Origin: Nanosynbacter sp.
Lineage (GTDB): Bacteria > Patescibacteriota > Saccharimonadia > Saccharimonadales > Saccharimonadaceae
DNA length: 15,577 nt
Assembly: GCA_015257445.1 (NCBI GenBank)
Contig: JABZKE010000002.1
Coordinates: forward strand, 1-15,577
Reading direction: 5' to 3'
The position numbers and the translations under genes were made by a program. The notes beneath the pieces are model-generated. The model ran no database searches and was not told where the DNA came from. It worked only from the letters and a program-made list of their open reading frames with translations. Below, piece by piece: positions 241 through 11,109 of the stretch. Position 1 is the stretch's first letter, and every line of letters begins with the position of its first letter.

Positions 241-1587
241 TTAACTTTTAAAAATTTGTCTTAATTGAGATTGAATATAACTGGAATTTAACCAGAAACA
301 TTTTTTGACTAATTGAATACCTTGAGGAGTATCTAGTGTATCCGAGGCATTTTTTGCATGAGGTCTGACATGGGCAACTCTATTCTCGGATTTTTTAGGC
401 AGGTCTTTCGCATGACCTACTATAATTTGGGATTTAGTTTTTTCCCAGACTTTTTGCGCCTCCAATTTATCTTCATATGGCATATTCCAGAAGTTTGCAC
501 CTCTAAAAATCATCTCGCCATCATCTTTTTCCTCAAAAACCGCAAATAGAAATTTATGCTCCAATATCTTGAAAAATTCAGAATCCTCCCATTCCTGCTC
601 TGATATTTCAAAATATGAAAAATACGGAAAAGACATATCTTCTTTGGGTTTAAATTTATCCCTAACCGTGATTACTTTTAGTTCAATATCTGCTTCGACT
701 AATTCTTTTAGTTGTTTTGTTTTTCCGCCAAGCATTCGAATCACGAGTGACCTACGATAGGATTTATCATTATTAAGATTATGAAAATCTAATTCTATAG
801 CAAGCTCTTTAATTGTTTTGCCGATAAATTTATGAAGTCTCATTTTAACAATATTTGAGAACCCAGCACTGGCTTGATACTCTGATGAGAATAATGAATC
901 ACTCTGATTATCTTCTTTAGTACTGGCTAACTCTACCATCTTATTCACATAAGAAGGCTTCAATGAAAAAGCACGTGATTTTGCAAGTTCACTGGAGAAT
1001 GGCTGTTTTCTCAGAGCTTCTTTGCTTCCACCCGAGCCCTTTCTGCATGCGGCTAAGTAAAAAGTATCACCTTCGGATAATTCATGTGCCAGGCCATTCT
1101 TAATCTTATCTACAATTGTTTGCCAATCCTGTCGGATAATTTCAAGATCATTCTTTGGAAAATCCCACAGTAGTGGCCTGAATGCAAATTTACGTTTTAT
1201 CGCTGGTAAATCACGGTCATAGATATAGAAAAGTATTAGCATTTGTTTGCATTTTTTCATTAAACTATTATCTTCCCAGGATTCGTTTACTAGGCCAAGA
1301 TAATCAATCATCGATAATACTAGACGTTCTTTTGCTTTGTAACTCCCATTGCTTTTTCGAATTACACCCGTGGTCTTTAGTTCTACTCCAGCTTTCTTAA
1401 AATCTGGTGCCTGTTCGTTGCCAGGATGAATCTTGAAAAAATACTCCTCGACGAGTGTGCCTAAGTTACCTTTATTCTTAAGATTTTCTGCCAGCTCCGT
1501 AAAATCTATTAATTCATCAAGAGAATGCCCCGGTAGTTTCTTAGAATATTCCAGGATAGATTGTGCTGAGCTTGCATCGTATTCCAT
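241..1587 (-). CDS. Sau3AI/MutH-family type II restriction endonuclease (GATC)
   Basis: This 448-residue protein matches the Sau3AI layout: an N-terminal MutH-like catalytic domain (about 1-220) and a C-terminal related, non-catalytic half (about 240-448). The catalytic set is visible: E47 in LVEEYF, D62 in APDF, and E69 and K71 in GVELK, corresponding to the E...D...ExK residues of MutH. Conserved blocks HELSEGDTFYLAACRKGS and RAFSLKPSYV follow. The C-terminal half keeps EQEWEDSEFF, FRGANFWNMP, VAHVRPHA and FWLNSSYI, all typical of Sau3AI-type enzymes. The expected activity is cleavage before G in GATC. It is divergent from the methyltransferase gene across 60 bp. The reading frame is uninterrupted. 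Codon use is more AT-rich than in the genes downstream, which suggests acquisition by transfer. Specificity is inferred from the family. Confidence 0.93.
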   Translation of the reverse strand: MEYDASSAQSILEYSKKLPGHSLDELIDFTELAENLKNKGNLGTLVEEYFFKIHPGNEQAPDFKKAGVELKTTGVIRKSNGSYKAKERLVLSMIDYLGLVNESWEDNSLMKKCKQMLILFYIYDRDLPAIKRKFAFRPLLWDFPKNDLEIIRQDWQTIVDKIKNGLAHELSEGDTFYLAACRKGSGGSKEALRKQPFSSELAKSRAFSLKPSYVNKMVELASTKEDNQSDSLFSSEYQASAGFSNIVKMRLHKFIGKTIKELAIELDFHNLNNDKSYRRSLVIRMLGGKTKQLKELVEADIELKVITVRDKFKPKEDMSFPYFSYFEISEQEWEDSEFFKILEHKFLFAVFEEKDDGEMIFRGANFWNMPYEDKLEAQKVWEKTKSQIIVGHAKDLPKKSENRVAHVRPHAKNASDTLDTPQGIQLVKKCFWLNSSYIQSQLRQIFKS

Positions 1588-1647: not shown

Positions 1648-2899
1648 ATGAAAAAGATAGGTGTTATTGAGCTCTTTGCGGGGGTAGGAGGTTTTAGAAT
1701 CGGGTTAGATGCTGTCAAAAATTCCAGTGTGTCATACGAAACTATCTGGGCTAATCAATGGGAACCATCGACAACTAGACAACACGCTGCTGAAGTTTAC
1801 TCTGCTAGATTTGGCAATGAGAATTTCTGTAATGAAGATATTGAAAAGGTAGTTAATGAAAATTTTTCGATTATACCGGACCACGACCTGTTAGTCGGTG
1901 GCTTTCCGTGTCAGGATTATAGCGTAGCTAGAACTTTAAAAAACTCCGAGGGAATCACTGGTAAAAAAGGAGTCTTGTTTTGGTCGATTTATAACATCTT
2001 GAAGAAAAAAGGTGACAAGGCGCCAAGGTTTCTATTTTTAGAAAATGTCGATAGGCTCCTGAAATCGCCAGCTTCCCAGGGGAAAAGATTTTGCTGTTAT
2101 GCTGGCTGCATTATCGGATTTGGGATATACCATCGAATGGAAAGTAGTAAATGCTGCGGATTATGGTTTTCCTCAAAGAAGAAAAAGAACTTATATTGTA
2201 GGCTATAGAAATTCCTCAATTGATGACTCAGATAAGCAAGCTTTCCTAGAAAATAATTCAGTTATGGCTGAAGCTTTCTCTTCCAAGTTAAAAGGGGTGA
2301 TTGGTCACTTCGAAATTAATGGCGATCTTGCTGAAATCTCTGAGAATTTTTCCAAAGAAAAGCCAAAAATTTCACCATTTAAAAATTGTGGATATATAAA
2401 AAATAGAGAAGTCTGGACTTCAGATTTTACGCCAATTTATGAAGGCAAAAGAACATTATTACGAGATGTTCTTCTTGATGAAAAAGATGTCCCGGAAAGT
2501 TTCTTTATTGATGATGAAAAACTCCCTACCTGGACTTACCTAAAAGGTGCAAAGAAAGAGGAAAGAACTAGCAGTACTGGTTTTAAATATCATTATAGTG
2601 AAGGTCCGGTTACATTTCCCGATAATCTCGATGCGCCATCTAGAACTATTATTACCGGCGAAGGTGGATCTGGTCCTTCAAGATTTAAGCACGTGATTGT
2701 GACTGAGAGCGGCAAATATCGAAGACTAACGCCGATTGAGCTAGAGCGTTTAGATATGTTCCCAGATAACCATACGATGCTAGATGGTGTGTCTGATACC
2801 AAGAGAGCATTCTTTATGGGTAATGCACTTGTTGTGGGATGTATTACTCGTGTAGGTGAAGCATTGGCTAATAAAATCCAATCTGGATTATTGTCATAA
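1648..2899 (+). pseudogene. DNA (cytosine-5) methyltransferase, M.Sau3AI-like, one frameshift
   Basis: Two overlapping frames together encode one C5 methyltransferase. The first frame starts at 1648 and carries motif I FAGVGGF (residues 10-16), motif IV GGFPCQ with catalytic C88, and motif VI ENVDRL (132-137). It then loses the family pattern after SPASQGK. The second frame takes over at about 2087, at DFAVMLAALSDLGY. It carries motif VIII FPQRRKRTY, the pre-IX block RRLTPIELERLDMFP, and motif X GNALVVGCITRVGEAL, and stops at 2897-2899. The span needs a net +1 or -2 shift in CAGGGGAAAAGAT (2077-2089) and would then give about 416 residues, about the size I recall for Sau3AI-type methylases. 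The related proteins I recall read QRGKDF or QRGRDF here, so a lost AG dinucleotide is one simple explanation; one extra A is another. The expected role is to protect GATC from the neighbouring endonuclease. Translation starting at ATG 2099 would lack the catalytic motifs. Confidence 0.9.
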
Positions 2900-4472: not shown

Positions 4473-5018
4473 ATGACTAAATATGCAAAAATCATGGCAA
4501 CTTTCGGCGTCTTAGCTGGACTCGGTGTCGCTTCACTTCCACTAGCAACATTTGCTGCTAACAACTCTGAAACCACCGTTAAGGTTACTGTTCAGGAAGG
4601 TATCTCTATCTCTAACGACAACGCTACCGCTGACGCTGGTAACAAGACCCCAGGTGAAGCTGGTTCTGCCACTTCTAATCTCACCGCTGCTACTAACAAT
4701 GCTCATGGTCTTAAGATTACCGTAAAAGATAAAGACACAGACACTTCTCTTCGCGCTACTACTATCACCGGTTCTACCGCTGGTGTAGACTTCATCCCAA
4801 CTGCCGCTTCTGGTATTGGTACTTGGAGCATCAAGGGTGGTGATCTCGCAGTTGATACCGCTATGGTTGGATCTGATCATGCTACCGGTCTCGTAGTTAA
4901 GAACACTACCGGTCCTTCCACCGAACAGGTTGCTATGACCTACCGTATCGAACCAGGTGCAGCACAACGCCAAGGTACCTACGAAGACGTTATCGTTTAC
5001 ACTGTTACCAAGAACTAA
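4473..5018 (+). CDS. Small secreted surface protein with WxL-like C-terminal motifs (paralogue 1)
   Basis: This 181-residue secreted protein has a signal peptide at residues 1-28/29 (basic start, hydrophobic core, ATFA cleavage region). The mature part is rich in Thr, Ala, Ser and Gly, and there is no membrane anchor. Near the C-terminus GTWSIKGG (116-123) and TYEDVIVYTVTKN (169-181) resemble the two motifs of WxL domains (Trp-x-Leu, then Y...V.WTL), in degenerate form. It is paralogous to the next gene: NNAHGLKITVKDKDTDTSL aligns with NSVTGYNINIRDKDSNTNL, and both end with a (T/N)Y(E/Q)DV(I/V)V strand. Strong preference for GGT, ACC, AAC and GCT codons, its own promoter and a perfect terminator all suggest very high expression. 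A peptidoglycan- or surface-bound role is inferred. The motif resemblance is weak and a pilin- or S-layer-like role is not excluded. Confidence 0.8.
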   Translation: MTKYAKIMATFGVLAGLGVASLPLATFAANNSETTVKVTVQEGISISNDNATADAGNKTPGEAGSATSNLTAATNNAHGLKITVKDKDTDTSLRATTITGSTAGVDFIPTAASGIGTWSIKGGDLAVDTAMVGSDHATGLVVKNTTGPSTEQVAMTYRIEPGAAQRQGTYEDVIVYTVTKN

Positions 5019-5038
5019 TTTCCCTGTATTGACTGATG

Positions 5039-5070
5039 AATCAGCTCCTGAAAAGGAGCTGATTTTTATT
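5039..5070 (+). terminator. Rho-independent terminator after surface protein 1
   Basis: The 11-bp perfect stem AATCAGCTCCT (5039-5049) / AGGAGCTGATT (5054-5064) has a GAAA tetraloop (5050-5053) and a TTTTATTT tail. It separates this gene transcriptionally from its paralogue. Confidence 0.93.
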
Positions 5071-5124
5071 TGACATTCTGGTAATGCTAAACTATACTAG
5101 ATACAAATAAGTAGAGGAAAAAAT
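5070..5124 (+). promoter_or_regulatory. Near-consensus sigma-70-type promoter of surface protein 2
   Basis: -35 TTGACA (5070-5075) and -10 TATACT (5093-5098) are separated by exactly 17 bp. The Shine-Dalgarno is GAGGA upstream of ATG 5125. The -35 begins inside the T-tail of the preceding terminator. Confidence 0.85.
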
Positions 5125-5673
5125 ATGAAACATATTGGGAAGGTGGTAGGCGTTCTTGGCGTCGCTTCTGCCTGTGGGTTAATGGCCTTACCACTTAGCA
5201 CTTTTGCTATTGAAAAGAAGAACAGCTTGGATGTGAATGTCACCATCGCTTCTTTTCTTAATGTAACGACTGGTGCTAGTACAGTAGCGGATACGATTAA
5301 ACCAGGCCAGATTAAAAATCTTACTAATACTATTCGTGTGAAGACGAACAGTGTCACTGGTTACAATATTAATATTCGTGATAAGGATTCTAATACCAAC
5401 CTTGTTCATGATACGACTACTACTAGTACTATTCCAGCTAAAAACGGAGCGCTCGACGGTTCTCAGGCTGGTTGGAATTACTCGGTTGGCGCCATTACGC
5501 ATAAGGCTGTCACGGCCACTGATGCCTCGATTTTTAAGAACCTGAATACTGCCAAGCAGGTCATCGACGAAACTACTAATATAAATTATCACGTTGCTGC
5601 TACTGGATCTGAAATTCCAGGTAATTACCAAGATGTAGTAGTTCTCACCGTTTCAGAAAATCCGGGCACATAA
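5125..5673 (+). CDS. Small secreted surface protein with WxL-like C-terminal motifs (paralogue 2)
   Basis: This 182-residue protein has a signal peptide (1-28, ending STFA), no membrane anchor and the same plan as paralogue 1. It has an N-terminal strand region, the shared GYNINIRDKDSNTNL block (79-93), AGWNYSVG (115-122) at the WxL-like position, and the closing strand NYQDVVVLTVSEN (167-179). The two mature proteins are clearly related but well diverged, so the duplication is not recent. Codon use is less strongly biased than in paralogue 1, suggesting lower expression. It lies just upstream of two DUF916-like membrane proteins, which in Firmicutes bind WxL proteins; partnership is inferred from context. 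No sequence feature gives an enzymatic role. Confidence 0.78.
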   Translation: MKHIGKVVGVLGVASACGLMALPLSTFAIEKKNSLDVNVTIASFLNVTTGASTVADTIKPGQIKNLTNTIRVKTNSVTGYNINIRDKDSNTNLVHDTTTTSTIPAKNGALDGSQAGWNYSVGAITHKAVTATDASIFKNLNTAKQVIDETTNINYHVAATGSEIPGNYQDVVVLTVSENPGT

Positions 5674-5685
5674 GCTAATTTTTCA

Positions 5686-5737
5686 TTGAATTACGCTTTT
5701 GCTCGTGTATAATAAATAGCATATAACTAGGAGGTAA
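5686..5737 (+). promoter_or_regulatory. Promoter and ribosome binding site of the first DUF916-like gene
   Basis: -35 TTGAAT (5686-5691), a 16-bp spacer and -10 TATAAT (5708-5713). A full AGGAGG (5729-5734) precedes ATG 5738. No terminator is seen between the preceding gene and this promoter, so some read-through is likely. Confidence 0.75.
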
Positions 5738-6694
5738 ATGAAAAAACTTAAAGGTCTAATTTTCGGTATGGCAGTTGCCTTGCCACTCTTCTTCGGCATC
5801 GTACGTCCAGTCCACGCAGATAACGGTACCGAACGTCTTACCAATCACATGCAGGTCTCGCCTGCGTCTCAGCAGCTTGGTACTTTGAAACCAGGTGAAA
5901 CTAAACAGGGTACGTTCCGTGTCCAGAATATCGGCACTAACGCCTTTGATTTTAAAATCTATGCTGCACCATACTCAGTCAGCAATGAAAACTACGACCC
6001 AACTTTCGATGCATCATCTGACTATACCAAGATTTCTAACTGGTTTACTTTTAATACTACCACTGGCCATCTCGATCCAAATTCGGAAACTACCATTGAA
6101 TACACCGTGAAGGTTCCACAAAATGCTCCAGGTGGTGGCCAATATGCCTCTATTATGGTGGAGAACGCCTCCAGTGAAAATTCATCTAATACCATTCGCG
6201 AAGTCACCCGTATCGGTATGTTAATTTACTCTCATATTGATGGTAAGATTAACCACTGTACTAAGATTTTGGAAAATAATCTTCCATTTATCCTCTTCAA
6301 CCCACCAATTTCCGGTACCTCTCGTGTTGAAAACTGTGGTAACACCGACGAGGATGTCAAATACGTTCTTCGTGTCTTCCCATTCTTCTCCAAAGAAGAA
6401 GTCTATACTAACGAAGAAAATCCTACCTACCGCACCACTCTCCCTAATACTAAGCGTCTCAGCAAGGAAACTTGGGAAAAATCTCCAGGTATCGGTATCT
6501 TCTGGGTCGAGCAAGATATTACTTTCGGTAGCGCCCACAATACCTCTCGTAAGCTCGTGATTCTTTGTCCTATCTGGCTTATCGTCTTACTCGTTCTCTT
6601 TATCCTCTCTGTTATCTTCTGGCTCGTCTCGAAGAAGTACGAGAATAAAAAATCTAATACCAAGTCCGCACCTCGCGTCGAATCTGATTTCTAA
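5738..6694 (+). CDS. DUF916/WxL-interacting-protein-like membrane-anchored surface protein (1)
   Basis: This 318-residue protein has a signal peptide (1-27, ending VHA). An Ig-like N-terminal domain (about 36-165) follows, with MQVSPASQQLGTLKPGE, GTFRVQNIGTNAFDFKIYA and VPQNAPGGGQYASIM, the pattern of DUF916 domains. A second beta-rich domain (about 166-270) is like the DUF3324 half of WxL-interacting proteins. One membrane helix (273-297) and a short basic cytoplasmic tail close it. C174 and C200 lie in the second domain and could form a disulfide. In Firmicutes such proteins bind peptidoglycan and WxL proteins at the cell surface; that function is inferred. It has its own promoter. The AAGGAG of the next gene overlaps its stop codon, so the pair is probably translationally coupled. 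Confidence 0.85.
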   Translation: MKKLKGLIFGMAVALPLFFGIVRPVHADNGTERLTNHMQVSPASQQLGTLKPGETKQGTFRVQNIGTNAFDFKIYAAPYSVSNENYDPTFDASSDYTKISNWFTFNTTTGHLDPNSETTIEYTVKVPQNAPGGGQYASIMVENASSENSSNTIREVTRIGMLIYSHIDGKINHCTKILENNLPFILFNPPISGTSRVENCGNTDEDVKYVLRVFPFFSKEEVYTNEENPTYRTTLPNTKRLSKETWEKSPGIGIFWVEQDITFGSAHNTSRKLVILCPIWLIVLLVLFILSVIFWLVSKKYENKKSNTKSAPRVESDF

Positions 6695-6705
6695 AGGAGT
6701 ATTTG

Positions 6706-7674
6706 ATGAAAAATAATTTTAAACGTGTCTTGACTCTAGCCCTCTTCGGGCTAGGTCTCTCCGGTCTCTTCGGTTTAGCAAAAACCTCTGCTACTTATGC
6801 CGGCGAAAAACCAGCTGAAAAACCAAAAGTTCAAATCCAAATTTCCCCAGTGAAGAACACCGTCTATCTTAAGGGTGGCGATGTTTCCGACTTCACCTTC
6901 AACGTTTCTAACATCGGTACCGATCCTTTCGATTTCAAGGTTTATGCTACTCCATATTCCGTCTCCAATGAAAAATATGAACTAAACTTCTCGAAGGAAA
7001 GTTCCCGCACTCAAATTACTCGTTGGACTACCTTTCAGGACGCTTCCGGGAATTACGTATCTGACGTCACCTACTCGGTTCAGCCAAACGAAACCAAGGT
7101 TGTAAAATATCGTGTCACCGTCCCTCAGGATGTTCCTGCCGGTGGTCAGTACGCCGTCATCTTTGCCGAAGCCATCCCTAAAGACGACCTTAATTCTACT
7201 GGTATTAAAACGGTTTCCCGCGTTGGCTTGACTCTCTATGGTAAAACCGAGGGTGAAACCAGGGAAGAAGCCAAAATCACCAAATACCATCTCGACGGTT
7301 TCCGTGTTTCTGGCAATATTCGCACCTCTGCTACGGTCGAAAATACCGGTAATACCGACTTTCGTGCCACTGTCAGCATGAAAGTAGAAAAGCTTTTCGG
7401 CGGTTCTATCTTTGAAGATACCAAGGGCTTCGATGTCTTACCAGATACCACCCGTGATGTTGATCTCGAATGGAAGGATAGTCCAGCCTTCGGTATCTAT
7501 CGCATTACTTCCACTATCTCGGCTGGTGGTAAAGAAGAAAAATCTACCAAGATTGTCTTGATTGTACCTATCTTTGTTCTAATTATTCTGTTTATGCTAT
7601 TGACAACGGCTGTGGTATGGTTTATCATCGTACTTAGAAAGCGTCGTGCTCAGAAGTCTAAGTTAATTATTTAG
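6706..7674 (+). CDS. DUF916/WxL-interacting-protein-like membrane-anchored surface protein (2)
   Basis: This 322-residue paralogue of the preceding gene has a signal peptide (1-32, ending TYA) and a DUF916-like domain (about 42-180) with IQISPVKNTVYLKGGD, FTFNVSNIGTDPFDFKVYATPYSV split by short loops, and VPQDVPAGGQYAVIFAEA. A second beta-rich domain (about 185-275) contains VENTGNTDFRATVSMKV. A membrane helix (283-310) and a basic tail RKRRAQKSK close it. I prefer ATG 6706 over the in-frame TTG 6703 because AAGGAG (6694-6699) then sits 6 nt away rather than 3. It is cotranscribed with gene 1 of the pair. It lacks the two extracytoplasmic cysteines of gene 1. The duplicated pair next to two WxL-like proteins suggests one DUF916-type partner per small secreted protein; this is a guess. 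Confidence 0.85.
   Translation: MKNNFKRVLTLALFGLGLSGLFGLAKTSATYAGEKPAEKPKVQIQISPVKNTVYLKGGDVSDFTFNVSNIGTDPFDFKVYATPYSVSNEKYELNFSKESSRTQITRWTTFQDASGNYVSDVTYSVQPNETKVVKYRVTVPQDVPAGGQYAVIFAEAIPKDDLNSTGIKTVSRVGLTLYGKTEGETREEAKITKYHLDGFRVSGNIRTSATVENTGNTDFRATVSMKVEKLFGGSIFEDTKGFDVLPDTTRDVDLEWKDSPAFGIYRITSTISAGGKEEKSTKIVLIVPIFVLIILFMLLTTAVVWFIIVLRKRRAQKSKLII
7600..7628 (+). promoter_or_regulatory. Candidate internal promoter for the VPNTG-protein gene
   Basis: Inside the 3' end of the preceding gene, TTGACA (7600-7605), a 17-bp spacer and TATCAT (7623-7628) form a plausible promoter. Transcription from about 7635 would cross the stop at 7674 and give an approximately 80-nt leader. The gap before the next ATG (7715) has no better promoter. 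It could be chance in coding sequence. Confidence 0.45.
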
Positions 7675-7714
7675 ACCCTGGCACAGATAAAAATAAAAAT
7701 AATAAAGGCGAAAA

Positions 7715-8686
7715 ATGAATAAAAAATCAATCATCGGCGCATTAGGAATAGCAGGCTTGACCCTACTCGGCGGCCTGGCGCTCACTAATCAAACTTACGC
7801 CCAGGAAGCTACTTCTTCTGAAGTAACCGTCCAGGTCACCGTTCTTCCAAACGGTCAATCAGTTGCTATCAAATCTCCTACCTCAGATAGCAAGGTTCTT
7901 GAAAATCAAGTACCACTCAATATTGATTTCACCAAGTCAAAAACTATTGAATACGAAATCAAACTCACCGACAAAGACGGCACTACCACTACTATTGCTA
8001 ACGAAACTGTTGACGTAAGTAATGCTGGTGCAGCTAATAGCGGCTCGAAGAAAATCCCTCTCGACATGCAACAGCTCACTAATGGTGTTTTTGGTAAGGT
8101 CTCTATTAAGGTTACCGTCGATGGCAAAGCTGAGACTGCTGATACCGTAGAATTTAACTATGTTCCAGTAGCAGTTGAGAAGACCCAGACTAACGAACGT
8201 GGTTACACTGGCTTTCGTATTGCCCACGCTGGTGGTGTCGCAAAAGTAAAACTTATCTTGAAAGATAAAGCTGGTCACAAGGTTGGTGATAAAGAAATCG
8301 AAATCACTGATCCAGTTGCAATGACCAACGGTGGCACCATCGAACTCAATTCAGAAGATATTAATAATAAATTGGACAAGGGTGATTACACTCTCGAAGT
8401 CTTGGCCTTAAACGGTGCTGGTGATGATCTCGAAAAACCAGAAGTTGCTAGCTTCAAGTTTACCGGCAAGGATGAACCAGCTAAACCAGAAGATAAACCA
8501 GCCACTCCAGGTAAGAATGGTGGTAAGAAAACCCCAGCCGTACCTAACACTGGTGGATCCGTCTTCGCAGGTATGAATCTTTCATCCTCAGACTTTCTCG
8601 CTTCCGGCATTGCCGTCTTCGCCTTCCTCTCTCTCCTCGCCGTCGTCTTCTTGAAGAAGGGTAAGAAATCCGCTTACCGCCGCTAA
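7715..8686 (+). CDS. Secreted beta-domain protein with VPNTG C-terminal sorting-type tail
   Basis: This 323-residue protein has a signal peptide (1-29, ending TYA) and two or three Ig-like beta domains (about 35-155 and 156-252). A Pro/Lys/Glu-rich spacer (252-275) follows, then VPNTG (276-280), a hydrophobic segment (about 295-313) and the positive tail KKGKKSAYRR. This order is that of sortase substrates, with VPNTG for LPxTG and an unusually long gap of about 14 residues between motif and helix. The protein may be wall-linked by sortase or simply membrane-held. Its Shine-Dalgarno is weak (AAAGGCG). It completes the WxL / WxL-interacting-protein / LPxTG gene trio. No enzyme motif is visible. 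Confidence 0.85.
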   Translation: MNKKSIIGALGIAGLTLLGGLALTNQTYAQEATSSEVTVQVTVLPNGQSVAIKSPTSDSKVLENQVPLNIDFTKSKTIEYEIKLTDKDGTTTTIANETVDVSNAGAANSGSKKIPLDMQQLTNGVFGKVSIKVTVDGKAETADTVEFNYVPVAVEKTQTNERGYTGFRIAHAGGVAKVKLILKDKAGHKVGDKEIEITDPVAMTNGGTIELNSEDINNKLDKGDYTLEVLALNGAGDDLEKPEVASFKFTGKDEPAKPEDKPATPGKNGGKKTPAVPNTGGSVFAGMNLSSSDFLASGIAVFAFLSLLAVVFLKKGKKSAYRR

Positions 8687-8778: not shown

Positions 8779-8855
8779 GGACGATTAGCTCAGTTGGCTA
8801 GAGCGCGTCTTTGACGTAGACGAGGTCAGAGGTTCAAATCCTCTATCGTCCACCA
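8779..8855 (+). tRNA. tRNA-Val (GAC), CCA encoded
   Basis: A full cloverleaf is visible: acceptor GGACGAT/ATCGTCC, D-arm GCTC/GAGC, anticodon stem CGTCT/AGACG with loop TTGACGT (anticodon GAC), and T-arm AGAGG/CCTCT with loop TTCAAAT. The discriminator is A and the CCA (8853-8855) is encoded. It reads GUC, and GUU by wobble. Confidence 0.96.
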
Positions 8856-8861
8856 GTAATT

Positions 8862-8882
8862 CAGGCTAAGGGCCTGTTTTTT
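8862..8882 (+). terminator. Terminator of tRNA-Val
   Basis: CAGGC (8862-8866) and GCCTG (8872-8876) form a short GC-rich stem with a five-base loop, followed by six T. Confidence 0.8.
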
Positions 8883-8900
8883 GTGTTTCTTGACATTTTG

Positions 8901-8962
8901 TGTTATAATATATGTTGTAACTAGTTTTTATTACTCAAAAAATGAAACAGGAGGGGGAAGTT
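8901..8962 (+). promoter_or_regulatory. Promoter and strong ribosome binding site of the P-loop kinase gene
   Basis: Extended -10 TGT-TATAAT (8901-8909). A TTGACA (8889-8894) just upstream is too close to serve as its -35. AGGAGG (8949-8954) lies 8 nt before ATG 8963. Confidence 0.65.
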
Positions 8963-9517
8963 ATGCTCGTTTATCTTGAGGGCCTACCGTATGTAGGAAA
9001 AAGCACTTTGGCAAAAGGATTAAAGTCTCGTTTGGGGGCAGGTTGGAAGATCATGGATGGTCAGAGTTTAACACAGGAAGAGCTTTACGTCTTAGCGCAT
9101 GGTAATTTTGGAAATGTAATTTTAGATTCATTCAAACCGTATTATGAATTAGCTAAGAAGTATGCGCGTTCTACTTATGTTCCCAAGCCGGTGCTAAAAG
9201 AATATCAGGCCATGCTACCTAGACCTACGGCGTCCTTTTATCTACATGTCGATAGGGCCATGACCTTGGTTTCTCGTGCAGAGACCGCCATTAATGCCGG
9301 GATGGACTGTACGAAGTTCGAAAGGTCCATCTTGCAAAGTGATCATCTGACTTTTGACGGCTTCCGTAACCAGTTCATGGAGTCGGTTAATACGATGGTG
9401 GTACCAGAGTATATCGTCACGGATAATCTTTCACCTGCCGAAGTACTAAGTTCAGTGTATTATAGCGTCAGCAGGGCAATTGAAGCCGCAAGGGAACCGA
9501 AAAGGGCTCTTGCGTAA
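8963..9517 (+). CDS. Divergent P-loop nucleoside/nucleotide kinase, dTMP-kinase-like
   Basis: This 184-residue protein starts with a beta strand and the Walker A motif GLPYVGKST (7-15). FYLHVDRAMTLVSRAE follows, resembling the dTMP-kinase strand L.VD.....R. and an Arg-containing lid. The usual dTMP-kinase DR(Y/F) substrate motif is not seen; LDSFKPYYELAKKY occupies its approximate place. It probably phosphorylates a (deoxy)nucleoside, a nucleotide or another small molecule; the substrate cannot be read from the sequence. I chose ATG 8963 over ATG 8942 because the Shine-Dalgarno lies between them. It is a single gene with its own promoter and terminator. Confidence 0.72.
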   Translation: MLVYLEGLPYVGKSTLAKGLKSRLGAGWKIMDGQSLTQEELYVLAHGNFGNVILDSFKPYYELAKKYARSTYVPKPVLKEYQAMLPRPTASFYLHVDRAMTLVSRAETAINAGMDCTKFERSILQSDHLTFDGFRNQFMESVNTMVVPEYIVTDNLSPAEVLSSVYYSVSRAIEAAREPKRALA

Positions 9518-9568
9518 TCGTGACAGACTGCAAACTAGTTTTGTCCTTTATCTAGCATCTTTGATGCA

Positions 9569-9600
9569 AAAGACCCCGATTCTTTCGGGGTTCTTTTTTT
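9569..9600 (+). terminator. Rho-independent terminator after the P-loop kinase gene
   Basis: CCCCGA (9574-9579) and TCGGGG (9585-9590), extended by flanking AAGA/TTCTT pairs with a bulge, followed by a T7 run. Confidence 0.92.
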
Positions 9601-9626
9601 GCGTCAAAATTCTTATGCCCTAAATA

Positions 9627-9664
9627 TGTTACAATATAAGTAATTAAATCGCATTGGAGTTAAT
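9627..9664 (+). promoter_or_regulatory. Promoter and leader of the HdeD-family gene
   Basis: Extended -10 TGT-TACAAT (9627-9635) without a convincing -35. GGAG (9656-9659) lies 5 nt before ATG 9665. Confidence 0.6.
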
Positions 9665-10309
9665 ATGAAAATTCAAGATAAAATTAACGCTTATCTCAAT
9701 ACTGCAATCTCCACTACCGTAGTAATGGTGCTGTTCGGCCTCTTTTTTGCTCTGCTTCCAGAATTCGCCCTCAACCTCTTGCGCTTACTGCTCGCTGCCG
9801 GATTTCTTCTCGCCGGTTTTAGTATGATCATGAGCCGAGTCTACTCGCGCTTTGTCCGTCTATTTTCTAGTAATTTCCTCGGCGCTTTTCTGATTGTAAT
9901 TGGTCTCGTCTTCCTCTTTTACCCAGGTATTCTCAGCCTTATTCCGATGACTATCGGTCTAGTGATTGTGATTTCAGCAATTTCTCGCATCGGTTACACT
10001 ATGGAGCTAAAAAACGTTTCTAAATCTGCTTATATCACCTCTATTATTACCAACCTTTTGTCCTTGACTGCCGGCGTCGCGATTATTGTCTATCCATTTG
10101 ATGCTTCCGCCATTGCCTTGTCGCTAATCGGCTTTATTATGATTGGTTATGGCCTCTCGGATTTAATCAATATTATTGTTCTGAAGAAACACGTTCATGA
10201 TTTCACCGATCGTTATAATCTAGTCTCTAAATTTTCCGGTTCGAAAAAATCCGAAACCAATCCAGATAACATCGAAGAAGCGGAAATTGTCGACTCTAAA
10301 AAGAAATAA
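9665..10309 (+). CDS. HdeD/DUF308-family six-helix membrane protein
   Basis: This 214-residue integral membrane protein has six predicted helices at about 15-32, 34-55, 70-88, 92-110, 124-143 and 148-172. They form the tandem pairs typical of HdeD/DUF308 proteins, with recurring patterns such as FLLAGFSMI, IGLVIVISAISRI and IGFIMIGYGLSDL. A hydrophilic acidic/basic tail (about 175-214) is cytoplasmic by the positive-inside rule. The E. coli namesake is linked to acid resistance, but the family's molecular function is not established. It is a single gene with its own promoter. No terminator is visible before the promoter of the downstream RNA. Confidence 0.82.
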   Translation: MKIQDKINAYLNTAISTTVVMVLFGLFFALLPEFALNLLRLLLAAGFLLAGFSMIMSRVYSRFVRLFSSNFLGAFLIVIGLVFLFYPGILSLIPMTIGLVIVISAISRIGYTMELKNVSKSAYITSIITNLLSLTAGVAIIVYPFDASAIALSLIGFIMIGYGLSDLINIIVLKKHVHDFTDRYNLVSKFSGSKKSETNPDNIEEAEIVDSKKK

Positions 10310-10331
10310 ACCCCTGTCATTGTGCTTATGC

Positions 10332-10360
10332 TTGCAAAATCTAAGGAATTTTGTTAATAT
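10332..10360 (+). promoter_or_regulatory. Promoter of the structured non-coding RNA
   Basis: -35 TTGCAA (10332-10337), a 17-bp spacer and -10 TAATAT (10355-10360) preceded by TGT (10352-10354). Transcription would start near 10367. Confidence 0.65.
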
Positions 10361-10789
10361 TATCGTGCAACACAGATATCTTGTGGATTGAGTATATTAA
10401 ACGTATCGGGTATATGAAAAACACATTATATTTTGTGCGGCAAGGTTTTTGCTACTTCCTTAGCGAGGATTTGAAAAACCCCTCTTAATTTTCTAAAAAG
10501 AACAAGCAACAAAACATGCAGTTTTACCAATCATTACTACCTCGCTGCGTGTCGCGTCGTGAGACTTTCTATTCTAAAAGTTATTGCCATTTCTTTTAGT
10601 TAGAAATAAGGTTCACCACCTTGGCGGCACGTTGGGGCCGAAGTCACTATTTCTCTTAAATTGAGCAAACTCACTTTCTTTTGTTTTTGGCAACATCCAC
10701 CTTTTCGGCCCCCAACTTATTTTCATAGTTGCAGCCTCAGCTTGACTAATCTTCTAGACATCAGAAGGCTGCGGATACCCCTCCAAAAA

Positions 10790-10870
10790 ATCCCACCTGC
10801 TGTGGGTCCCGTCTTGTATAAGGCGAGCTCAAATCCCATTTCTTATGGGTCCCGTCTTATCTAAGGCGGG
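10790..10870 (+). repeat. Tandem 43-nt two-hairpin repeat in the RNA 3' end
   Basis: Two copies offset by 43 nt, each with a CCCA(C/T)-5 nt-(G/A)TGGG hairpin followed by CCCGTCTT-4 nt-AAGGCG(A/G)G. First hairpins: 10792-10806 and 10835-10849. Second hairpins: 10808-10827 and 10851-10870. The first-hairpin closing pair changes from C-G to T-A between copies, a compensatory change that keeps the stem. Confidence 0.85.
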
Positions 10871-10879
10871 TATTTTTTT
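10851..10879 (+). terminator. Terminator of the structured RNA
   Basis: CCCGTCTT (10851-10858) / AAGGCGGG (10863-10870) with an ATCT loop and a TATTTTTTT tail. It is the last hairpin of the tandem repeat turned into a terminator. Confidence 0.88.
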
Positions 10880-10910
10880 GCTTAAAAATTATCTAGAAGA
10901 TAGGCGAAAA

Positions 10911-10939
10911 TAAAAAAGAACCCCGAAAGGCTCTTTTAA
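10911..10939 (-). terminator. Terminator of tRNA-Lys
   Basis: On the minus strand AAAAGAGCC pairs with GGTTCTTTT (one mismatch) around a TTTCGG loop and runs into TTTTTTA. Confidence 0.75.
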
Positions 10940-10948
10940 AAATCTCTG

Positions 10949-11025
10949 TGGTGAGTCGGGAGGGACTCGAACCCTCGACACCGGGCTTAAAAGGCCCGTG
11001 CTCTAACCTGCTGAGCTACCGACCC
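10949..11025 (-). tRNA. tRNA-Lys (UUU), CCA encoded
   Basis: Minus-strand cloverleaf: acceptor GGGTCGG/CCGACTC (one G-T pair), D-arm GCTC/GAGC, anticodon stem CGGGC/GCCCG with loop CTTTTAA (anticodon TTT), and a T-arm with GAGGG/CCCTC and loop TTCGAGT. The discriminator is A and the CCA is encoded (complement of 10949-10951). U34 of this tRNA is a standard target of MnmA, encoded in the next operon. Confidence 0.96.
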
Positions 11026-11075: not shown

Positions 11076-11109
11076 TGGTATAATATTCAGAGTAAAAAAT
11101 AAGGGCAAT
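11076..11109 (+). promoter_or_regulatory. Promoter of the typA-tatD-cysteine desulfurase-mnmA operon
   Basis: Extended -10 TGG-TATAAT (11076-11084), a leader of about 20 nt and a weak AAGGG (11101-11105) before ATG 11110. No good -35 is visible. Confidence 0.65.

Follow-up and report, generated by a model that had tools for sequence, protein, structure and literature searches.

A candidate stand-alone structured RNA of about 510 nt in a Nanosynbacter genome

Comparison with described bacterial RNAs

The OLE gene is located near oapA, and OLE, ROOL, GOLLD and raiA are all represented by Rfam families. OLE RNA works with the membrane protein OapA, and ROOL and GOLLD often lie close to the tRNA islands that phages and prophages carry (PMC12286853). 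Another structured bacterial RNA, the raiA motif RNA (ModT), is described from more than 2,500 species belonging to Bacillota and to at least one further phylum (PMC11706538). As far as its main text goes, a paper on structured RNAs of the human microbiome mentions neither TM7 nor Saccharibacteria (PMC8040213). No paper on a Nanosynbacter small RNA or on a Patescibacteria structured RNA was found in the open-access literature, and among the matches listed there for Saccharibacteria noncoding RNA none concerns such an RNA.

The stretch analyzed here, 15,577 nt of a Nanosynbacter sp. contig (JABZKE010000002.1) and referred to below as the window, contains a predicted noncoding RNA of about 510 nt (10367-10879, plus strand), called from its fold z-score, the lack of a credible open reading frame (ORF) and the lack of an Rfam match over the cut-off. 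In the gap that holds it (10310-10948) no Rfam family reaches its cut-off, and a search with all 4227 families under permissive filters (E up to 10) yielded six chance-level matches far below the cut-offs, with OLE, ROOL, GOLLD and raiA not among them. The only relative found, at the same locus of TM7 phylum sp. oral taxon 351 (HOT-351), strain SAG3 (G001 below), gave six matches at E up to 5, the best being a minus-strand Srn266 match of 24.1 bits, where the cut-off is 63. Like ROOL and GOLLD, the candidate is a large structured RNA near a tRNA, with no credible coding frame; it differs from them in having no Rfam match, no occurrence found in phages and no phage context seen. With OLE, which has a membrane-protein partner, it shares the character of a large structured bacterial RNA; however, it has no Rfam match to OLE, and proteins of the DUF308 family, one of which is encoded next to it, were matched in 20 other genomes of the genus (36 searched), whereas a strong match to the RNA was found only in G001. 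No raiA match was seen either. ROOL, GOLLD and OLE form homo-oligomeric RNA-only complexes.

RNase P RNA and tmRNA are likewise stand-alone structured RNAs, 331-431 and 352-365 nt long in the same genus, but they can be recognized by BLAST across the genus, which the candidate cannot, and it shares no match with them. Class A RNase P RNA (RF00010) gave no match at E 10 to the window RNA or at E 5 to its G001 counterpart; tmRNA (RF00023) scored 5.8 and 8.1 bits, respectively, on the opposite strand only and against a cut-off of 47; ARAGORN found no tmRNA, and SRP RNA had no covariance-model match at E 10. The original prediction, which recognized none of the RNase P, tmRNA or SRP cores, thus agrees with the covariance models, and the novelty it proposed was not removed by a common RNA; its alternative, a highly diverged form of a known RNA, gained no support. 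That the element might be a strongly diverged RNase P, tmRNA or SRP RNA was suggested by G001, the nearest genome, in whose 541,021 searched bases none of the three was over the cut-off (for SRP RNA, this absence stands without a control that the SRP RNAs of relatives would match). This genome is rated only 83% complete, however, and the element and its relative lack an RNase P match while RNase P exceeds the cut-off elsewhere in 13 of 14 genomes of the genus, and tmRNA in 12 of 14; we regard this identity as scarcely plausible. G001 gives no RNase P match but does contain a gene that adjoins RNase P in two of 13 loci of the genus; this says little, because the neighbor is common to so few loci. 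Apart from rRNA and tRNA, DUF3800-XI RNA (L186, 663-710, contig 10) alone exceeded its cut-off in the searched G001 sequence.

Locus, transcription signals and predicted fold

The original prediction placed the RNA in a gap of about 640 nt in an otherwise packed segment, between a membrane-protein gene and a tRNA. The gap measures 639 nt and lies between a DUF308 gene (9665-10309, plus strand, PF03729), judged to be outside the element, and a convergent tRNA-Lys(TTT) gene (10949-11025, minus strand, tRNA and Rfam calls). These genes do flank the RNA here, but the link is not conserved. The DUF308 proteins of relatives are at best about 30% identical to that of the window, and two of them are encoded near tRNA-Lys or typA with the RNA unmatched: in G020 the DUF308 match ends 46 nt before tRNA-Lys and in G034 about 235 nt before typA. 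The RNA would not fit into either space, and model R1 of the RNA finds no match in either genome. The genes for tRNA-Val and tRNA-Lys are neighbors in several relatives (L027, L029, L037 and L039) and in the window (8779-11025) are 2.1 kb apart in opposite orientation. From these arrangements it follows that the locus was rearranged in the clade and that the RNA is bound to neither neighbor.

Window proteins identified by the Pfam scan include the DUF308 protein, TypA, TatD and a class-V aminotransferase. At 1648-2899 (plus strand) a 186-aa C5 DNA methylase frame (Pfam) overlaps a second, 266-aa frame and adjoins a gene for a MutH-like endonuclease (241-1587, minus strand); the arrangement suggests a restriction-modification locus whose methylase is broken, unless a sequencing frameshift is responsible. 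Five tandem genes at 4473-8686 encode apparent secreted or surface proteins (by eye), possibly involved in host contact.

The signals expected at the two ends of the RNA were found. A promoter, read by eye, has a -35 box TTGCAA (10332-10337), a 17-nt spacer and an extended -10 box TGT-TAATAT (10352-10360); it is absent from the automatic scan list because eight of its 12 bases match the consensus, below the threshold of nine. The 42-nt stretch ending in the extended -10 box (10319-10360) is unchanged in G001. At the other end, the terminator scan identified an intrinsic terminator with an 8-bp stem and a T run (10851-10877), and repeat search and folding revealed a tandem repeat (10788-10868) of two 38-nt copies (10788-10825 and 10831-10868), 43 nt apart and 82% alike, each consisting of a hairpin and a terminator-type hairpin. 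The longest ORF with an ATG, GTG or TTG start inside the RNA encodes 67 aa from a TTG, and a search of the protein collection, at the sensitivity of the tool, yielded no homologue of it; five ORFs of the region have no Pfam match. Promoter, terminator, tandem hairpin repeat and the lack of a credible ORF had all been predicted, and all four stand. When six small ORFs were compared between the window and G001, 12 of 15 base differences altered an amino acid (overlapping frames counted apart), and one of the six ORFs gained a stop. A minus-strand peptide (10613-10726) with some resemblance to FISUMP-type proteins has no Pfam match and was discarded.

The two copies of the tail can each fold into a terminator-type hairpin or pair with each other in one long duplex of 17 pairs. 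In G001 a change at 10861 makes the duplex between the copies unbroken, which hints that copy-to-copy pairing could matter. Such alternatives would suit a 5' leader of typA, the next plus-strand gene (start 11110), in which the RNA and its tail would decide whether transcription terminates or reads through the antisense tRNA gene into typA. Yet typA lies past the terminator and the intervening convergent tRNA gene, and because it has its own extended -10 box (11076-11084, by eye) and is present in relatives without an RNA match, a leader role is very unlikely.

The unusually good plus-strand fold of the stretch of about 510 nt was confirmed by computation. Its predicted energy is -139.2 kcal/mol (z -4.68), with none of 100 shuffles as stable, compared with z -1.63 and eight shuffles as stable for the minus strand. 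The G001 counterpart reaches z -4.72, which is not independent evidence because the two sequences are 98% identical. At least six helices had been predicted, among them one of 12 bp, and this was corroborated by a mean pair probability above 0.6 in 12 of the 18 helices of the minimum free energy (MFE) fold. The RNA begins with an imperfect 5' hairpin of 24 pairs (10367-10441; mean pair probability 0.86, z -2.91 alone). It is followed by a compact four-way junction (10549-10630; pair probabilities 0.81-0.98, z -4.28 for 10543-10634), which is closed by the stem GTGTCGC/GCGGCAC and carries a 3-bp arm with a GTGA loop, a long arm and an arm with a TTCACCA loop; four bases of the GTGA loop (10559-10562) are complementary to the TTCACCA loop (by eye), and the two loops could form a kissing contact inside the junction. 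Neither ARAGORN nor Rfam calls a tRNA in this junction that would make it a tRNA-like domain. Next come a 12-bp helix with one bulged base (10631-10642/10704-10716; pair probability 0.63-0.73 in two folds, z -2.85), which closes a 61-nt loop, and a hairpin GCAGCCT/AGGCTGC (10731-10772; pair probability 0.93, z -1.63 alone). The tandem tail (10785-10879), folded alone, has z -4.65, so that four of five modules lie below -2.8, the exception being the hairpin at 10731-10772.

The window was also tiled on both strands with 513-nt tiles (122 tiles and four RNA stretches, 126 tests in total, with 25 shuffles each). The most extreme tile was 10501(+) with z -5.8, and the RNA stretch took the fifth rank with z -3.78, behind two tiles at 5001 (-5.2 and -4.7) and one at 9251 (-3.9), which contain other intergenic hairpins. 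A low z-score alone is not special, because the intergenic stretch 5000-5124 reaches -4.92.

If the RNA were a trans-acting base-pairing regulator, its G-poor unpaired motifs CUUCCU, UCCACCU and CCCCUCC would pair with Shine-Dalgarno regions of mRNAs and block translation, the fold serving only for stability. Several C/U-rich motifs are accessible, and there are 16 G among the 219 unpaired positions of the MFE fold (a count that has no shuffle baseline); however, enrichment of anti-Shine-Dalgarno motifs failed against shuffles, with eight 5-mers compared with 6.6 +/- 2.9 (177 of 500 shuffles reach eight) and a Shine-Dalgarno duplex energy reached by 67 of 500. Such a regulator seems unlikely to us, and because the motifs are not enriched, a scaffold or particle is favored over a simple antisense RNA, with modest confidence.

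Distribution and divergence

The G001 counterpart is 98% identical over the RNA and 95% over the whole gap, and it was the only strong match in every BLAST and model search. The window thus comes from a close relative of this oral Saccharibacterium. At E 0.001, BLAST gave matches in two of 60 relatives (the second of 47 bases, E 7e-4), three of 394 family genomes and two of 379 phylum genomes; at E 0.1 it did so in 36 of 174 genus genomes, those besides G001 being short (best E 2.8e-4). Model R1 matched five of 174 genus genomes (E 1), six of 392 order genomes (E 0.5) and one of 32 genomes in a smaller set (E 1), and model R2 two of the 174 at E 0.1; the genome sets overlap, and those of family, order and phylum (379-394 genomes) are samples. 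Eleven weak BLAST loci were dismissed as homologues, since none matches the rest of the element; nine of them lie in reading frames of at least 200 codons, one in a frame of 111, and L105 in no long frame. Eight R1 loci were rejected after visual inspection of their alignments and for their scores of 12-18 bits, compared with 231 for G001, and the R2 match in G186 (E 0.0017) seems, also by eye, to combine the end of a coding sequence with an unrelated terminator. In control searches, one RNase P RNA of the genus found all 12 others (E 4.8e-28 or better) and one tmRNA all 11 others (E 9.6e-12 or better), the targets being loci already found by Rfam and the E-values calculated for a 700,000-base database. 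Since both find their counterparts in the genus by BLAST, an RNA conserved to the same degree would have been detected. Within the genomes searched, the element is confined to a small clade or has been lost from the others. Collecting homologues by BLASTN and synteny, as originally proposed, thus produced one relative at the same locus and nothing else convincing in the genus, family, order and phylum sets. For the idea of a new family this means a predicted structured unit with no Rfam match over a cut-off, but in two sequences that are 98% identical.

The candidate might instead be an ornate RNA like ROOL or GOLLD, carried beside a tRNA by a phage or another element. It does adjoin the 3' end of a tRNA gene, in keeping with the frequent position of these RNAs near phage or prophage tRNA islands (PMC12286853). 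Nevertheless, neither 50,697 phage nor 72,556 plasmid records contain a match, and four pattern scans of viral contigs revealed no relative: patterns of 16 and 17 bases hit 49 and four loci, and R1 run over all 53 gave one match at E 0.53. No phage family is among the ten window proteins in the Pfam scan, and a mobile origin of this kind is very unlikely. A repeat of the tRNA end, looked for as a sign of integration, was not found in the window.

Between the window and G001, the RNA differs by substitutions at 11 of 513 sites (2.1%) and one inserted base. Divergence is much higher in coding sequence (940 of 10,431 sites, 9.0%; p 5.6e-10 against the RNA) and at fourfold sites of the DUF308 gene and typA (89 of 397; p 1.9e-23). 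Against the three spacers picked first, the p-value is 1.4e-5, with one spacer having 14 or 10 differences depending on the alignment; against nine other intergenic stretches pooled (33 of 807 sites, 4.1%), it is 0.06; a 607-base stretch at the end of the window, with differences at 81 of 606 sites, was excluded from the pool because it is possibly coding. Just past the terminator, the spacer has diverged more (8 of 61 sites and an 8-nt deletion). Of 10,598 sliding windows, 283 are as conserved as the RNA; besides those at the RNA itself, they start near the two tRNA genes. Low divergence also marks 8900-9300 and the first part of typA, in whose first 300 bases none of 42 fourfold sites differs, so a recombined tract could contribute to the low divergence of the RNA. 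The intergenic stretch 5019-5124, which includes a strong terminator-like hairpin, has no difference in 106 sites, its flanking coding sequences being 9 and 15% different. Constraint on the RNA is likely, but it is not proven, because divergence is patchy in this genome pair.

The substitutions were also examined with respect to pairing. For this pair of 98%-identical sequences, six of the 11 are unpaired in the MFE fold, three keep a pair by a one-sided change and two break one; no two-sided compensatory change was seen among them. Random placement breaks as few pairs in 5.3% of 20,000 trials (P 0.053, marginal); the same test gives 0.14 for the centroid fold and 0.0005 for the two-sequence alifold, the latter value being circular because alifold was fitted to both sequences.

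These data bear on whether the stretch is functional at all. A decayed gene or mobile remnant that happens to end in a duplicated terminator would account for the lack of matches in the other genomes searched, for a locus rearranged relative to kin and for the DNA methylase frame that looks broken elsewhere in the window. It accords less well with the low divergence, the retention of both promoter and terminator, the fold excess in most modules and the lack of a protein homologue for the one ORF searched and of Pfam matches for the five, and we consider it quite unlikely.

Proposed role and significance

The reading we prefer, though its chances seem to us evenly balanced, is a stand-alone gene for a structured RNA of about 510 nt that is not translated, acts in trans and probably serves as a scaffold. 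Computation supports it through the terminator and the repeat, the excess stability of the fold, the low divergence and the absence of any credible frame. From these features we infer transcription and action as an RNA in trans; the latter would be the likeliest mode because the RNA has its own terminator, a convergent tRNA gene precedes typA, and the typA-leader role is unlikely. Transcription would start near 10367 from the extended -10 promoter and end at the terminator near 10877, and the untranslated product of about 510 nt would fold into the 5' hairpin, the four-way junction, the domain of the 12-bp helix, the hairpin and the duplicated hairpin-terminator tail. In the proposed mechanism, these modules may form a scaffold, either for proteins or for self-association, and a simple antisense role is not favored. 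The RNA would have been gained by the HOT-351 clade or retained only there.

The original prediction of an unidentified promoter-to-terminator structured RNA thus holds for a structured, apparently noncoding unit with its own promoter and terminator and no Rfam match, but not for the status of a family. With a promoter (read by eye), a terminator, no coding frame and excess fold stability, the RNA has the features of large structured bacterial noncoding RNAs, among which it is an orphan candidate rather than a demonstrated new class. We likewise consider it a good candidate for a new lineage-specific RNA, as its sequence matches no catalogued family and turned up in a single further genome. 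A bolder version, in which it would be an ornate RNA particle of a new class that only one episymbiotic clade of Saccharibacteria possesses, is doubtful; the four-way junction and the self-complementary tandem tail would then drive assembly or protein binding, with a possible role in life on the actinobacterial host.

Genomes of the genus are small (0.5-1.2 Mb among 36), and the retention of a 510-nt RNA gene without coding function in such tiny genomes suggests that it has a real use. Should the RNA be expressed, it would exemplify a large structured RNA arising or surviving in one narrow clade, and would open a way into the RNA biology of this radiation.
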